Part shown: piece by piece, positions 4,461 to 16,158 of the stretch
How the letters are laid out: each line of letters starts with the position of its first letter
Numbering within the stretch: the stretch's first letter is position 1
Virus record (IMG/VR): IMGVR_UViG_3300025292_000011
Location: 1-32,536 of that record
From: a virus
DNA: 32,536 nucleotides
Reading direction: 5' to 3' (one strand)
The notes under the pieces: generated by a model
The model's database searches: none
What the model was told of the DNA's origin: nothing
What the model saw: only the letters and a program-made list of their open reading frames with translations
Position numbers and translations under genes: made by a program

Positions 4461-6578
4461 TTGAAAGAATACTTAAAATTAAATAATGAGATTTTGAATA
4501 CATATAAGTCGACAGGTAAAATTGATCGTGAAAAAGATACACTTGCCACAACTAAGTATTTCTTAGAAGAAGTAAATGTGAAGATGCGATACTTCATTGA
4601 CCTAGAAGAGAAAATTAAGTATCTAGTTAATGAAGATTATTATGAAAAAGATTTCTTAGCCATGTATAATTTTAAATTCATTAAAAAGATTTTCAAAATT
4701 GCATATAGCTACAATTTCAGATTCCCATCTTTCATGAGTGCTAGTAAATTTTATGATTCCTATGCATTAAAAAGTCGAGACGGTAATGAAATTTTAGAAA
4801 AGTACGAGGATAGAATCTCTATTATTGCATTATACCTTGCTCAAGGCGATACGGTATTAGCTGAAAAAGCAGTACATGCTATCATGGACGCATATCAACC
4901 TGCAACACCAACAGCATTGAACAGTGGTAAGAAAGCACGTGGCGAATTAGTAAGCTGTTTTAAATTATTAATGTCTGATGACATGAACAATATCACATAC
5001 AACATTAGCAATGCATTACAACTATCAAAGCGAGGTGGTGGAGTTGGAATAAGTATTACTGACTTACGACCAATTGGCGACCCAATCAAAGGGATTCTAA
5101 ATAGAGCGAGTGGGGTTATGCCTGTATGCAAGTTGCTAGAGAATTCTTTTAGTTACGCAAATCAGCTAGGCTCAAGAAATGGATCAGGGGTAGTGTGGTT
5201 AAATATTTTTCATGGTGATATTGAGAATTTCATTTCATCTAAAAAACCTAATGCCGATGAGAAGATTAGGTTGACTACATTATCAACAGGAGTTATTATT
5301 CCATCGATATTTTTTGAATTAATGAAAAAAGATAAGGATATTGTATTATTCTCACCATATGACATTAAGAAGGAGTATGGATTAGATATGTCTGAAATTT
5401 CAATTACAGACATATATTATCAACTACTAGACAATCCTAATATACGCAAGCTCAAACGCATTAACGCTCGTAAACTTTATACTGAAATTAAGAAATCACA
5501 ATTTGAATCAGGATACCCATTTGAAATGTACGACGATAACGTGAATAAAGTGCATCCGTTAAAAGGTATTGGACGAGTGCGTATGACAAATCTTTGTAAC
5601 GAAGTCCTTCAATTGCAGAGTCCAAGTATTATTAAAGACGGAAACATCGACAATGAATTTGGATTAGATGTATCTTGTAATTTAGGCTCTATTGATATTC
5701 ATACTTCAACAAAAGTAAATGACTTTGAAGAGCTAATTGATACGTCTACTAGATTATTAAATCAAGTTTCGTTAATGACTAATATGAAAGTTGTTCCTTC
5801 TGTAGAAAAAGGTAATAATTTGATGAACTCTATTGGGTTAGGGATAATGAATTTACATGGACACTTAATGGTAAATGATATTGAGTATGGTTCTCCTGAA
5901 TCCATTGAATTTATTGACAGATACATGGAGGCTTTAAATTATTTCTCACTTAAAACGTCTAATGTCTTAGCTTTTGAGATCGGAGAAACATTCTTTGGAT
6001 ATGAAAAGTCAGACTATGCGACAGGTGAATACTTTAATAATTACATTTCAAAAGTAGATATTGAACCGTCTGAAAAAGTAAAAAAGGCATTGGGCAATAC
6101 TCCTATTATTACATCAGGAATGTGGAAAAATTTAAAGGATAGTGTTAAAAAGTATGGTGTTTTTAACAGCTACCGCATGTGCATTGCCCCTACTGGTTCT
6201 ATAAGCTATGTCAGAAGTTCTACGGCATCCATTTCGCCAATAACAGAAATAGTTGAAACTCGTGATTACGGTGATAGTCGTACAATTTATCCAATGCCAT
6301 TCTTAACTAACGATAATAAAGATAAATATGTTGACGCTTATAATATTAATCCGTTTAAGATGATTGATTTATATGCCACTGCTCAGAAACATATTGATCA
6401 AGGAATATCCATGACATTATATGTAACAGATGATTGGACAACAGAGAGACTAGCTAAGGTATACGCTTATGCACATCAAAAAGGAATAAAGACTGTCTAT
6501 TATGTGAGACAGCGATTAAATACTCTTGACGGTGTAGTTGAAAAAGCGATGTCTGAATGTGAGTCGTGCTCTATATAA
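4461..6578 (+). CDS. nrdE: Class Ib ribonucleotide reductase large subunit NrdE
   Basis: About 705 residues, full length for NrdE, reducing ribonucleoside diphosphates to deoxy forms. Visible landmarks: the first redox Cys in 'GELVSCFKLLMSDD'; the radical-site triad in 'TNLCNEVLQL' (Asn, Cys, Glu); the second redox Cys in 'DVSCNLGSID'; a Pro/Thr-rich substrate loop 'IAPTGSISYV'; and the C-terminal CESC pair that receives electrons from NrdH. There is no ATP-cone. The start is taken as TTG 4461, with AAGGGTGA 5-6 bases upstream, though GTG 4452 also fits. Unlike SPbeta bnrdE, no intron or intein interrupts the gene. Confidence 0.93.
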   Translation: MKEYLKLNNEILNTYKSTGKIDREKDTLATTKYFLEEVNVKMRYFIDLEEKIKYLVNEDYYEKDFLAMYNFKFIKKIFKIAYSYNFRFPSFMSASKFYDSYALKSRDGNEILEKYEDRISIIALYLAQGDTVLAEKAVHAIMDAYQPATPTALNSGKKARGELVSCFKLLMSDDMNNITYNISNALQLSKRGGGVGISITDLRPIGDPIKGILNRASGVMPVCKLLENSFSYANQLGSRNGSGVVWLNIFHGDIENFISSKKPNADEKIRLTTLSTGVIIPSIFFELMKKDKDIVLFSPYDIKKEYGLDMSEISITDIYYQLLDNPNIRKLKRINARKLYTEIKKSQFESGYPFEMYDDNVNKVHPLKGIGRVRMTNLCNEVLQLQSPSIIKDGNIDNEFGLDVSCNLGSIDIHTSTKVNDFEELIDTSTRLLNQVSLMTNMKVVPSVEKGNNLMNSIGLGIMNLHGHLMVNDIEYGSPESIEFIDRYMEALNYFSLKTSNVLAFEIGETFFGYEKSDYATGEYFNNYISKVDIEPSEKVKKALGNTPIITSGMWKNLKDSVKKYGVFNSYRMCIAPTGSISYVRSSTASISPITEIVETRDYGDSRTIYPMPFLTNDNKDKYVDAYNINPFKMIDLYATAQKHIDQGISMTLYVTDDWTTERLAKVYAYAHQKGIKTVYYVRQRLNTLDGVVEKAMSECESCSI

Positions 6579-10817: not shown

Positions 10818-10863
10818 ATATACATAGCGTTATAAAAGGTATACGAAAATAATGGAGGTTATC

Positions 10864-13317
10864 ATGGTGATGGATGAAAATTTATTCTCAAAAGAAAACA
10901 AATATAAAAAAATGCAGAGGTCAAATGTTATAGTAGATGAATTTGGTGAACGTCAAATACTAATTGGTGTATTAGAACGAGTATCCACTGACACTCAAGC
11001 TGTAGATGGCGATTCTCTTGAGATGCAACGTGAAATGGCTCAAGATTATGCTAATTCTATAGGAGGAATCATTTATAAATTTTATACAGAGGAAGGCGTA
11101 TCTGCTTCGAAAGTTAGATTAGAAAAGCGTGAAAAAGTACAACAATTGATTCAAGATATTAAAGATAATAAGGTAAATTACGTAATAGCTTATAAGCGTG
11201 ATCGTATGTTTCGTAACACACAAGAATACATGTGGTTTATTCAATTCTTAGCAGACAATAACTGTGAAATTTATTTAACTGCTCGTGGAGAACAACAAAT
11301 AGATTTATCTGCATTTAAAACAGCAGGAGCTAGTAAAATGATGGAAGTTGTAATGTCTATGGTTGCAGAAATGGAGTCAGCGACAACATCTGCTCGTGTG
11401 TCAGATACCATGATATCTAAAGCGCAAAAAGGTGAGTTTACAGGAGGAAGTGTACCAATAGGGTATAAACTAGAAAACGGAAAATACGTACCAATAAAAG
11501 GTGCAAAAAGTATTTTTGAAAAAATAGAAGATTTATATCTACAAGGGTATGGAATGATGACCATTGCAAAATGGTTAAATGGAGCAGAAATAAAAAACTT
11601 ACCGACATTAACCTTACCGATACCGAAGCCTATTTCTTATTCTTCTACGGAATTATGGAATCATAGGAACATTAACACAATACTATTTAATCCTGTTTAT
11701 ACTGGACATTTGCAATACCAAAGTAAAAAAAATATCGATTTAGATAGGATTATAGAAAAAAGCGATATGATTATTCCTTTACGTACAGAGGAAAGACAAC
11801 GGGATATTAATTTATTACAAGCAAAAAAGAAAAAGGGAGTTAGACCTCCAAGAGCATACAACACCACTTTCTTATTGTCTGGATTATTATTTTGTGACGA
11901 ATGTGGAGAAAAATTTTTAACAAGTACAACTCAAGACAAAGAGGGTAAAAGACGTTCTTATTATGTATGCAAAAATAAAAGGTCTAATTATAAAAATACT
12001 CATTGCAATAATCATGGATACAGAAAGGAAGTTATTGAAGATTTAATATTGAAGGCGGCGAAAGATAAAATTGCCGAATTTTTAAGTCCAAATGTATATG
12101 AAAAATTAAAAGCTAAAATTGAACTCGATAAATTAACTTATAGCAAACAATCTGATAATGTAGAAAAAAGAATTGAGGCGTTACAAGAAGAATTAAACAA
12201 TTATACTGAATTAGTGGGTCAATTAAAAGACGATTTTGAATTGCAAAAAGTATATCTACAAAAACAAAAGCAAATATTAATTGAACTTAATGATATGAAA
12301 GAGGCTTACGCAGTTTTGGCAGAAAAATCAGAAGGTGAAAGTAAAGACTTTAATTTAGAAGACTTTATGAGATTGGCAACTAATTTCGGTGATGTGGTAG
12401 AGAATGCTCCTGTAGGAATACAGAAACAGTTGTTAGAAGACTTATTCACTGATATATATGTTAACAAAGAAGGCAATGTATCCCTTAAAATACGAGCAGG
12501 ATTAGCGGATAACAGTAACATATTAGACGACGCTGACTCTAATGATGATTCTGAAGCTAGTATAAGTTTTAGTACAGGACGCTCGCCAGTGGTTGTGAAA
12601 GGTAGACAACAACGCATAAATGAGTTCGAAATAGAGTTCAATTATTTTGATTTTGTCTATGAAATCACTAGTATGTTATATAAAAATTTAGAGGATTACT
12701 TATCATCTTTCGATAAAAACATTCTAATTGAAAATGCTCATGCGATTGATTTAATTACTCTACCCGATTATAAGAATCGGGCATATAAAGATGATTTTAT
12801 TATTAGAAAAGCAATAAACGCTCAATATTTAATTACTCACTATGGGTTGAATTATTATTCATTAACTAAATATAGGGAAAAAACAGGATTAAGTTTAAAA
12901 ACGATAAAATCCATGATAGATACATCGGGTGGCTCATTCGAAGAGTATTTAGAATATTTACTAGACATTTATCCAAATATGATTGTCGATGAAGAACTAT
13001 TAGGGGTATGTATTAATATTTCAAATGAACGTGATAAGATATATGATGAAGCGTTATTTAAAGGTAAAATAAGATGCAAGTGCGGAAAGTTATATGTAAG
13101 AAAGAAATCTATTCACACCTCAAGATATGTCTGCCCTAACAAGAAAAATTGTCGAACTATAGGAATCAAGGAACTAGAACTAATTGAGAAAATAAAAGTG
13201 GACACTGGTTATATTATAAAATCATACAAAGATGTTGAAAATTTAATTGAAGGTATACAGGTGTATAACGAAAGAAAAAAATATAAAGTATTCTATAATG
13301 ACAGTAACACTAACTAA
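10864..13317 (+). CDS. Large serine recombinase (phage integrase), unusually long
   Basis: The start is ATG 10864, with GGAGG 5 bases upstream (ATG 10852 precedes the site), giving 817 residues. Catalytic Ser is about residue 41 in 'LERVSTDTQ'; 'YKRDRMFRN' holds catalytic Arg. The recombinase domain runs to about 330. A first zinc ribbon (CDEC...C...C, about 342-380) is followed by a coiled coil (about 400-490). 'LEDLFTDIYVNKEGNVSLKI' at about 525 is the usual end of this family. An atypical 280-residue extension follows, with a second ribbon (CKCG...CPNKKNC, about 737-760). The frame stops at 13317, but the +1 frame continues with a recombinase-like tail to 13405. It is not an SprA orthologue by eye. 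It should integrate the phage at a specific att site. Confidence 0.9.
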   Translation: MVMDENLFSKENKYKKMQRSNVIVDEFGERQILIGVLERVSTDTQAVDGDSLEMQREMAQDYANSIGGIIYKFYTEEGVSASKVRLEKREKVQQLIQDIKDNKVNYVIAYKRDRMFRNTQEYMWFIQFLADNNCEIYLTARGEQQIDLSAFKTAGASKMMEVVMSMVAEMESATTSARVSDTMISKAQKGEFTGGSVPIGYKLENGKYVPIKGAKSIFEKIEDLYLQGYGMMTIAKWLNGAEIKNLPTLTLPIPKPISYSSTELWNHRNINTILFNPVYTGHLQYQSKKNIDLDRIIEKSDMIIPLRTEERQRDINLLQAKKKKGVRPPRAYNTTFLLSGLLFCDECGEKFLTSTTQDKEGKRRSYYVCKNKRSNYKNTHCNNHGYRKEVIEDLILKAAKDKIAEFLSPNVYEKLKAKIELDKLTYSKQSDNVEKRIEALQEELNNYTELVGQLKDDFELQKVYLQKQKQILIELNDMKEAYAVLAEKSEGESKDFNLEDFMRLATNFGDVVENAPVGIQKQLLEDLFTDIYVNKEGNVSLKIRAGLADNSNILDDADSNDDSEASISFSTGRSPVVVKGRQQRINEFEIEFNYFDFVYEITSMLYKNLEDYLSSFDKNILIENAHAIDLITLPDYKNRAYKDDFIIRKAINAQYLITHYGLNYYSLTKYREKTGLSLKTIKSMIDTSGGSFEEYLEYLLDIYPNMIVDEELLGVCINISNERDKIYDEALFKGKIRCKCGKLYVRKKSIHTSRYVCPNKKNCRTIGIKELELIEKIKVDTGYIIKSYKDVENLIEGIQVYNERKKYKVFYNDSNTN

Positions 13318-13405
13318 TGAGATATTATTACAATTAAAAGAAAAAATAATCGACAAGATTGAAATTTATGAAGATGCTACATTTAAAATAATATACAACA
13401 CATAA
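13298..13405 (+). pseudogene. Frame-shifted recombinase C-terminal tail
   Basis: In the +1 frame relative to the integrase, 35 codons from ATG 13298 read MTVTLTNEILLQLKEK, then IIDKIEIYEDATFKIIYNT, which matches the conserved C-terminal strand motif of large serine recombinases. The frame is open upstream across an A7 tract at 13275-13281. There is no ribosome binding site of its own. It is probably the true end of the integrase after a one-base indel, or is made by slippage on the A7 tract. Confidence 0.5.
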
Positions 13406-13415
13406 CACTTTATAT

Positions 13416-13463
13416 TCTCCTTTACCTATGCGAAAATTAATGTATAGAAAGGGAGATTTTTTT
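13416..13463 (+). promoter_or_regulatory. Possible SD-sequestering or terminator hairpin before the radical SAM gene
   Basis: TCTCCTTT (13416-13423) can pair with AAAGGGAGA (13448-13456, one bulged G), which contains the ribosome binding site of the next gene. T7 follows directly. It may end integrase transcripts or mask translation. The loop is long (24 bases), so the fold is uncertain. Confidence 0.3.
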
Positions 13464-14567
13464 ATGCAAACATTAATAAAGCCTTACGATGAATGGGAAA
13501 GTTACCACGATATTGAAAGGTATGGGAAATTAACTTTATCAAACATTGAATTTACAACTACAAATCTTTGTAATATGCGTTGTGCCCATTGTGCAGTTGG
13601 TTACGCTTTACAAACAAAAGAAGATGAAGCTATTCCTAGTGAAGAAATAATCAAACACCTAGATGCTGTAGAAACACTCCGTACAATGAGTTTTACAGGT
13701 GGCGAACCGTTATTAACTAAACGTGGAATTAAAAATAACTTATTGCCACTTCTTAAATATGCTAAAAGCAGAGGCATTAAAACTCAAATTAATTCTAATC
13801 TAACTTTACCTATGGATCATTATGAATTAGTCGCTCCTTATTTAGACGTTATGCACATTTCTCATAACTGGTGTGATGAAAAGGAATTTGTTGAGACTGG
13901 ATTTGCTATGATGGATAGAAAGCCGCCTTTAGAAAAAAGAGCAGAGTTATACAGAAATATTCTAGATAATGCTAGAGAGCTTTCTAAAGGTGGAATGTTC
14001 GTATCAGCCGAAACTATGCTTAATCGTAATACAGTTCCTTATCTAAAGAAGATTCATAATGAAGTAGCTAATGAAATGCTTTGTAAAAGGCACGAAATTC
14101 ATCCTATGTATTCTAGTGACTACGCTGAAAGTTTAGAAACTATTGGATTGGACGAATATAGGGATGTAGTCAGTAACATTCTAGATTTTAGAAATGAAGA
14201 TATTTGGATATTATTTGGTACATTACCGTTTTACGCTTGTAGTTCTGACAAACGTGATTTAGCTTTATTAGATAGAATTAATAAGACTCCTAATACAACT
14301 ATCAGAAATGACGTGGATGGACGATCACGAATGAATTTAAATATTTTCACAGGGGATATTTCAGTATCGGACTTCACTGATGATGGAGCATCACTAGGTA
14401 ATATTCAAACAAGCACATTATTAAACATTTATGATAAATGGTTGAATACTAATATTTCTAACAGTATTAATTGTCATTGTCCTGCTGTTAAATGCTTAGG
14501 TTCTAATGTCATCGTTAAAAATATGTACTATCCAAATAAAACATTTGTGAGTGGTTCAGTGAGATAA
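13464..14567 (+). CDS. yfkAB: Radical SAM / CxCxxxxC protein, YfkAB-like
   Basis: The start is ATG 13464 (MQTLIKPYDEWESYHDIE), behind AAAGGGAGA; 367 residues, full length for YfkAB. The 4Fe-4S motif CNMRCAHC is at residues 36-43, 'TGGEP' at 78-82, 'YLDVMHISHNW' and 'GFAMMDRKP' in the middle, 'LFGTLPFYACS' and 'DGRSRMNLNIF' later, and the C-terminal CHCPAVKC (337-344) is the family-defining CxCxxxxC. All strongly match Bacillales YfkAB, a chromosomal protein of unknown substrate. It lies between the phage integrase and the tail module, as though it were cargo or the attachment-site gene. Base composition resembles its phage neighbours. A strong terminator follows. Confidence 0.9.
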   Translation: MQTLIKPYDEWESYHDIERYGKLTLSNIEFTTTNLCNMRCAHCAVGYALQTKEDEAIPSEEIIKHLDAVETLRTMSFTGGEPLLTKRGIKNNLLPLLKYAKSRGIKTQINSNLTLPMDHYELVAPYLDVMHISHNWCDEKEFVETGFAMMDRKPPLEKRAELYRNILDNARELSKGGMFVSAETMLNRNTVPYLKKIHNEVANEMLCKRHEIHPMYSSDYAESLETIGLDEYRDVVSNILDFRNEDIWILFGTLPFYACSSDKRDLALLDRINKTPNTTIRNDVDGRSRMNLNIFTGDISVSDFTDDGASLGNIQTSTLLNIYDKWLNTNISNSINCHCPAVKCLGSNVIVKNMYYPNKTFVSGSVR

Positions 14568-14700: not shown

Positions 14701-16158
14701 TTATACATTCTCACTCAATGATTTATGATACGCAATACTCCTAATTCTAGATTCTCTTGGCGTATAATTACACATTCCTATTTCACTTCCTATTTTTAAA
14801 TAGTTCGTTACAGATGTCCATCCTAGATCAACTTTCTCAACTATTTCTTTTACTGTCAATCCATCGTTCCACATTTCAGCGTATGTTTTAATTGTAGATT
14901 TAAATGATTTAATTTTTATATCAGACCAATCAACTTTACTTAAGTCAAACAACTCTGCCATCCTACTATTTAATATACTATTTCTTATATACTTAAAATC
15001 TGAACGTTTACATTCTATTATTATATACTCCTTTATATTATTCTTCATTGCAGTTTCATATTTTAACCTATCATTTTCTTGCTCTTCTTTAAGTGTGCGA
15101 GCTTCTTTTCTTTTTGACTGTTCGTAATGTTGACTTCCATGCATCTCTATAATTATGTCATAATGAGGTAAATAAAAATCATAACGCTTATTATTAGACC
15201 ATTCAAAAGACAATTCATAATGATAAGACTCCACTATATGACTTAGTATTAAACTCATTATTTTCTCAGGTAAACTTCTTCCATCAGAGCAATTGGAGCA
15301 TGGTAATCTTCTATTTGATATGTTGTTTATTGATTTATTTTTTATAGTACTGCCACAATCAGCACATCTCCAGTCAACTTTCTTATTGCTACTTTGCATA
15401 TATTTATATCCATCTTCAGGATCAGCGAGCATAGAGGCAAGTTTCGGATTAGTTGTCCATATATCATTGAACCCCTTTAACAACTTATGACTACTACAAT
15501 ACGGACAACCAGATTTATTAGTTCTTGTTCTGTGACAAATTTGAGCATCCCACTCATGTCCACATTTACCCAGCCACCATACTTTTTGATTATTCTTTAC
15601 AGTTACACCATGAGGAGTTAAATCGCCATTTTTTGTGGGATGCCATTGTGAAGCTAAGTCTTGTCTTTTTGAAGCGAGAGAGTTTGTATGATTAATCAGC
15701 TTGCCAGAACAATAAGGACATCCTGATTTATTTGCAGATAACTTACTGTTCGCTGACGAAAAGTATTCGCTACTACATTCTAAACAAACCCACCATACTT
15801 TTTTACTATAATTGCAAGCTACCATATGCGGAGTTAATTCTCCATTTTTAGTAGGATGCCATTCTTTTGCTAGAGAAGGATTTAAAGTTGCCAACGAATT
15901 TGTGTGATTAATACGTTTCCCTGAGCAGAAAGGACAATTCTGATTTATTTTAGCTCGGTTATATATACTCAAATCGTATTCGCTATTACATTTAAGACAA
16001 GTCCACCATACCTTCTTAGTATTATTGTAATGAGTTTTGTAAATATCAATTCCAATATCTTTATTTTTCTCAAAATTCCATTCATCAAATAACTCTGGTC
16101 TTACTTTCAACATGGCATTCTCATTTAATCTGATCGAATTATCTAATGTCATCATCAA
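14701..16158 (-). CDS. Freestanding homing endonuclease: zinc-ribbon repeats plus Vsr/EDxHD-type nuclease
   Basis: The 485-residue protein has four tandem zinc-ribbon repeats over about residues 20-290 (CLKC...CPFC, CLEC...CPYC, CGHEW...CPYC, CADC...CSNC). Repeats 2 and 3 share 'KEWHPTKNG(E/D)LTPH'-like text, as in DUF4379-type ribbons. Residues about 293-395 form a Vsr-like nuclease: Glu in 'LPEKI', Asp in 'RYDFYLP', 'IIEMHGSQHYEQ', then 'ENDRLKYE', fitting the E-D-xH-D order of I-Bth0305I-type homing enzymes. A C-terminal helix-turn-helix ('LTVKEIVEKVDLGWTSVTNYLK') would add DNA binding. The start is TTG 16158 or ATG 16155 behind AAAAGGAG. Such genes mobilise themselves by cutting empty sites. 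Confidence 0.75.
   Translation of the reverse strand: MMMTLDNSIRLNENAMLKVRPELFDEWNFEKNKDIGIDIYKTHYNNTKKVWWTCLKCNSEYDLSIYNRAKINQNCPFCSGKRINHTNSLATLNPSLAKEWHPTKNGELTPHMVACNYSKKVWWVCLECSSEYFSSANSKLSANKSGCPYCSGKLINHTNSLASKRQDLASQWHPTKNGDLTPHGVTVKNNQKVWWLGKCGHEWDAQICHRTRTNKSGCPYCSSHKLLKGFNDIWTTNPKLASMLADPEDGYKYMQSSNKKVDWRCADCGSTIKNKSINNISNRRLPCSNCSDGRSLPEKIMSLILSHIVESYHYELSFEWSNNKRYDFYLPHYDIIIEMHGSQHYEQSKRKEARTLKEEQENDRLKYETAMKNNIKEYIIIECKRSDFKYIRNSILNSRMAELFDLSKVDWSDIKIKSFKSTIKTYAEMWNDGLTVKEIVEKVDLGWTSVTNYLKIGSEIGMCNYTPRESRIRSIAYHKSLSENV

Follow-up and report, generated by a model that had tools for sequence, protein, structure and literature searches.

A probable temperate phage of Lysinibacillus-like bacteria carries a diverged yfkAB gene, and its relatives integrate in host yfkAB through serine integrases

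The window (the whole IMG/VR virus record IMGVR_UViG_3300025292_000011, 32,536 bp) contains one yfkAB gene, which is complete and phage-borne (13464-14567, plus strand, 367 aa, translation without internal stop). The protein matches TIGR04478 (rSAM_YfkAB) with 543.2 bits against a curated cut-off of 250 (E 3e-163, residues 7-362, profile positions 6-359 of 363) and the Pfam families YfkB (221.8 bits) and Radical_SAM (46.3 bits). The CxxxCxxC radical-SAM motif lies at residue 36 (CNMRCAHC) and a C-terminal CxCxxxxC motif at residue 337 (CHCPAVKC), which confirms the full-length gene with both iron-sulfur motifs described in an earlier note on this DNA. The fold search returned only generic radical-SAM relatives (peptide-modifying enzymes, viperin and NifB). 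A viperin-type function was rejected (NF038283, 41 bits against a cut-off of 180; the PADLOC match covers only the radical-SAM core). The phage copies form a clade apart from the native yfkAB genes (support 100/100), and support for the monophyly of the group labelled PH was moderate (89/83). They are under strong purifying selection, with pairwise dN/dS of 0.02-0.08 (n=4; rough values, as several dS are near or above 1) and of 0.055-0.081 between the window gene and the three others, and judged from its sequence the phage copy looks functional.

To the left of yfkAB are genes for ribonucleotide reductase (RNR), thymidylate synthase and dihydrofolate reductase (DHFR), followed by a large serine integrase of 821 aa (10852-13317, plus strand, start possibly at 10870). 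Between 4452 and 10621, NrdE and NrdF (class Ib ribonucleotide reductase) form with thymidylate synthase and dihydrofolate reductase a phage nucleotide-synthesis module. The right neighbour, directly past yfkAB and convergent with it, is an HNH/homing-endonuclease-like gene (14701-16158, minus strand) with three DUF4379 zinc-finger repeats, past which lie an endolysin and then tail-type genes. Pfam and PHROG matches thus agree with the earlier reading of a serine integrase on the left and a homing-type endonuclease and tail genes on the right. No tRNA, Rfam element or host gene next to yfkAB was found in the window. Among annotated phages, the closest tail protein belongs to Lysinibacillus phage LC76P1 (56% over 99%), and the one tail protein compared is at most 33% identical to those of the Bacillus phages listed. 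Of the first 8 kb of the window, compared at DNA level with an SPbeta-type record, the RNR genes alone matched (66% over 10% of the query). We read the window as a segment of a large temperate phage that infects Lysinibacillus-like bacteria.

A relative from IMG/VR (G001, 121,875 bp) has the same order as the window, namely DHFR, serine integrase, yfkAB and convergent phage genes, and its exact end repeat of 127 bp indicates a closed circular molecule of 121,748 bp. This order supports the single phage with a carried copy that the earlier note had favoured. Besides the window and G001, clear YfkAB matches in the IMG/VR scans were limited to a 6-kb fragment (L003) and a host-gene piece (G263). 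G001 (L028) also has an extra HNH-type ORF between its RNR genes (5997-6542), absent in the window, that looks like a homing endonuclease. In relatives, an actin/ParM-like gene with a small partner is found immediately beyond yfkAB or beyond the place where yfkAB is missing (L002, 2016-3174; L004, 11254-12388; L070, G135 C22:277131-278475), perhaps with a plasmid-like maintenance function.

Upstream of yfkAB, a terminator-like hairpin with a T-run (13414-13463, plus strand; fold -14.8 kcal/mol, z -3.6) is the same in G001 and in a prophage of Lysinibacillus sp. BPa_S21 (G002). An extended -10-like element, TGCGAAAAT (13429), lies on its loop side, and its 3' arm is the ribosome-binding site AGAAAGGGAG (13446). 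The element upstream of yfkAB is common to phage and most host yfkAB genes; of the conserved hairpin, most native genes share the -10-like element only. A riboswitch was rejected on this ground and on the lack of an Rfam match. The hairpin may act as promoter and terminator, and phage yfkAB would then be transcribable separately from the integrase. Directly before it lies what appears to be the fossil C-terminal tail of another integrase (13312-13405, plus strand), out of frame with the present one, whose end (IDKIEIYEDATFKIIYNT, then a stop) resembles that of the G001 integrase (IDHIEIYEDTTFKIIYSN, then a stop). DNA homology between the window and G001 falls between 12473 and 13347 and resumes at 13347. 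Together, the fossil tail and the homology gap suggest that integrase parts are swapped while yfkAB stays.

With the phage protein as query, YfkAB was detected in 196 of 261 genomes of one family, mostly with one match each and with several in a few. In G002, the host yfkAB is split near residue 214 by a prophage of ~134 kb whose own intact yfkAB is 87% identical to the window copy; the host halves are 56-60% identical to the phage copy. The junctions share GGTACATCGGATG, the codons H-P-M-Y, and the integrase of this prophage (506 aa) is of another type than that of the window. In G035, a prophage of ~157 kb with the integrase type of the window splits the host yfkAB near residue 80, at the radical-SAM GGEP motif. 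Both lysogens keep an intact phage yfkAB, ~58% identical to the broken host gene and antiparallel to it. Two integrase types therefore strike two places in yfkAB, each beside a spare copy. Integration at host yfkAB with supply of a replacement, one of the options in the earlier note, is thus directly seen in these two relatives. At high identity, the window-type integrase occurred only in G035 among the 261 genomes of the family, and a search of viral contigs for the G002 type returned only distant relatives.

A related prophage of ~134 kb is present in G135 (L069/L070, C22:145899-281324), inserted in yfkAB at the HPMY site, and its integrase is followed by a 105-aa zinc-ribbon fragment resembling the integrase extension. 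No spare yfkAB was detected in this prophage; lysogeny is therefore possible without one. In G055 (L071, C1:3116411-3119373), the host yfkAB has an in-frame insertion of ~19 residues exactly at the HPMY attachment site, beside a lone G002-type integrase gene (532 aa) without prophage, which is possibly an integration scar.

The G035 lysogen also has its integrase in two pieces. The N part (window residues 10-583) abuts the N part of the host yfkAB at one prophage end, and the C part (window residues 578-817) abuts the C part of the host gene 157 kb off, with the shared core GGAGAAC at the junctions; this places the phage attachment site (attP) within the integrase ORF. After integration, the integrase frame reads on into the antisense strand of yfkAB, where it meets a stop after ~35 codons. 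The empty site is represented by an intact gene (G053). In an 80-bp stretch around the crossover, this gene and the attB reconstructed for G035 agree at 77 positions. The IMG/VR record G263, whose number suggests an isolate genome, contains attL, an assembly gap (an N gap at the site) and then attP, across which the integrase frame is open; this points to excised DNA in that same sample. Its junction falls at the same integrase position and the same GGEP codons as in G035. The circular record G001 keeps an unbroken integrase frame over this site. Its end repeat ends precisely at GGAGAAC, which is where a branching of the assembly graph at the crossover would place its limit. The G035 integrase is thus a suicidal integrase, that is, one whose gene is split between the prophage ends, and G263 supports this.

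Each of these attP sites is centred on a dyad, with 15/25 positions paired in G035, 15/25 in G263 and 14/25 in G001; dyads as good occurred in 12, 13 and 29 of 20,000 shuffles, respectively. From the dyad centre, GA is the likely overlap dinucleotide. The carried yfkAB differs from the phage's own attP in the core Glu codon in all three phages, which, in this tiny sample (n=3), is consistent with avoidance of self-integration.

The window integrase has, in the order expected of a large serine integrase, a catalytic Resolvase domain, a Recombinase domain and a Zn-ribbon (Pfam), then a coiled coil and a C-terminal extension with a weak second Zn-ribbon; PHROG 95 (integrase) matches residues 43-552. 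Its identity to the N parts of the integrases in G001, G035 and G264 is 54-61%, and that of its extension to the extensions in G001 and G035 is only ~30%. Alignment to the attP of G035, G263 and G001 places a predicted attP inside the ORF at 12559-12608 (strand not assigned), with the core GCTCGCC at 12581-12587 and the dyad centre at 12583/12584, near codon 578. The corresponding attB is predicted to have GGCGAGC in the yfkAB codons for GGEP. Its dyad is weaker than in the relatives (12/25 half-site positions paired; 155/20,000 shuffles as good). The attachment cores that the earlier note expected on either side of yfkAB (13.3-13.5 and 14.57-14.7 kb) do not fit this picture, the junctions of the relatives being elsewhere and the predicted attP being inside the integrase gene. 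As the canonical integrase match ends at residue 552, before the attP codons, a prophage would keep the recombinase core and lose the extension with the second zinc ribbon. In the structure model (mean pLDDT 54), the segment encoded by attP falls in a very-low-confidence stretch. The searches gave no lysogen of the window phage itself; by analogy with its relatives the window integrase would likewise be split on integration. Its ORF is intact, so that the record would represent the unintegrated form if the model below holds.

Several genomes appear to record what is left after such prophages. In G045 and G044, a phage-type yfkAB, integrase remnants and decayed native fragments are present in the native locus near a HAD hydrolase gene; G045 also has a relict attR in which the host gene is kept from residue ~77 on, beside an integrase remnant, and G003 has a phage-type yfkAB with an integrase tail. 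We compared the common yfkAB neighbourhood in the genomes G151-G165. The native gene has one orientation relative to its neighbours in G151, G152, G153, G154, G158, G162, G163 and G164, and the same slot holds a phage-type yfkAB, inverted, in six species (G155, G156, G157, G160, G161 and G165). As the phage and host copies are antiparallel in G002 and G035, this inversion is what a prophage relict would leave, and since the six species form one clade it reflects one event. These arrangements point to permanent replacement of the bacterial yfkAB by the phage copy as a possible outcome.

We therefore consider it probable that, in relatives of the window phage, a serine integrase directs insertion into the host yfkAB and a complete yfkAB of diverged sequence is carried beside the integrase gene, so that the lysogen keeps YfkAB, the integrase is truncated and the carried copy may become the sole yfkAB. 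Integration would break the host gene, as in the relatives, where the host gene is broken and the phage copy intact. The phage copy, seemingly with its own promoter, would keep YfkAB available in the lysogen through its expression and complementation. In the integrase type of the window, attP would lie between the canonical recombinase fold and the C-terminal extension, and integration would truncate the enzyme, as observed in G035 and, at assembly level, in G263, and as predicted by alignment for the window. Once the prophage decays, the sole remaining yfkAB may be the phage copy, in inverted orientation at the native locus; the arrangements are those found in the genomes above, and their order in time is the presumed part.

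It is rather unlikely that yfkAB is instead an ordinary accessory gene by the integrase, with no replacement role and a match between cargo and target that stems from imprecise excision. Imprecise excision is generally known to pick up adjacent host genes, and the G135 prophage does without a spare copy. Against this reading, the phage copy is only ~58% identical to the broken host copy and in another clade, is under strong constraint, is kept across two integrase types and stays when the native gene decays. Still less probable, and in our view improbable, is that the split integrase of G035 is an accident of aberrant recombination or misassembly and not the normal route for this integrase type. 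Both prophage ends were seen in a single whole-genome lysogen only, and the G263 scaffold has its N gap at the site; against this stand the coincidence of the G035 and G263 junctions in integrase position and GGEP codons, the relict attR in G045, the circular G001 assembly cut exactly at the core and the dyad at the site in each attP.

The earlier note had also allowed for a single host yfkAB flanked by two prophage ends, a reading that only the convergent gene layout would favour. The same order in the complete circular phage G001 excludes this option, in the lysogens the phage copy and the broken host copy are two distinct genes, and the window shows no host genes next to its yfkAB; we give this option almost no weight. 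The preferred reading thus remains a phage with host yfkAB as target and a carried replacement. More tentatively, and with somewhat less than even confidence, we propose that cutting the integrase gene at a linker gives one integrase form, with the second-zinc-ribbon extension, in the free phage and another, lacking it, in the prophage, as a switch of recombination direction or stability that is coupled to a spare gene copy able to displace the host gene later.

These observations suggest that the cost to a host whose gene is broken by a phage can be offset by a whole diverged replacement that the phage carries, and not by a restored gene end alone. They also give a traceable series from active lysogen through decaying lysogen to inverted relict, at the end of which the phage gene is the host's only copy, and the split integrase offers a natural truncation experiment on the role of the serine integrase C-terminal part. 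Searches of the open-licence literature, which are weak evidence of absence, gave no earlier report of a bacterial serine integrase that is split in this way, or of a phage that brings along the complete gene into which it inserts.

A 2021 review describes suicidal integrases as exclusively archaeal tyrosine enzymes (PMC8371274), a published claim of restriction to Archaea that the split serine integrase contradicts. The archaeal SSV-type elements covered there (SSV1, pTN3 and pT26-2) are alike in having attP inside the integrase gene and in yielding N and C parts on integration, but theirs are tyrosine recombinases with the catalytic domain on the C part (PMC8371274), whereas here a serine integrase keeps the catalytic domain and recombinase core on the N part. 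The window integrase, with its serine recombinase domains, is not of the tyrosine type that defines the SSV group. SSV-type elements are not known to bring a copy of the gene into which they insert. SPbeta of Bacillus subtilis is likewise a large temperate phage of Bacillales whose serine integrase, SprA, directs insertion into a host gene, spsM; excision during sporulation restores spsM, and SPbeta is not known to carry a spare copy. Lysinibacillus phage LC76P1 is similar in its tail protein but differs in that its record contains no YfkAB match.

In Staphylococcus aureus, phiSA169 and other Sa5-type phages insert in the host yfkAB and are described as disrupting it (PMC7329321, PMC11852059); the host tolerates this, so yfkAB is not essential in S. 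aureus. These phages differ from those described here in host and in integrase class, as their records have yfkAB beside a xerC-type integrase. YfkAB matches in Staphylococcus phages were not counted as further carried copies, since phiSA169-type phages insert in the host gene, and yfkAB in these records looks like the host's own gene where it borders the prophage. Some phages and islands compensate for the damage they cause by restoring the end of the gene they enter, for example icd or tRNA genes. Such elements bring a short end that fuses with the host part, whereas the phages described here carry a whole diverged gene, apart from the crossover.
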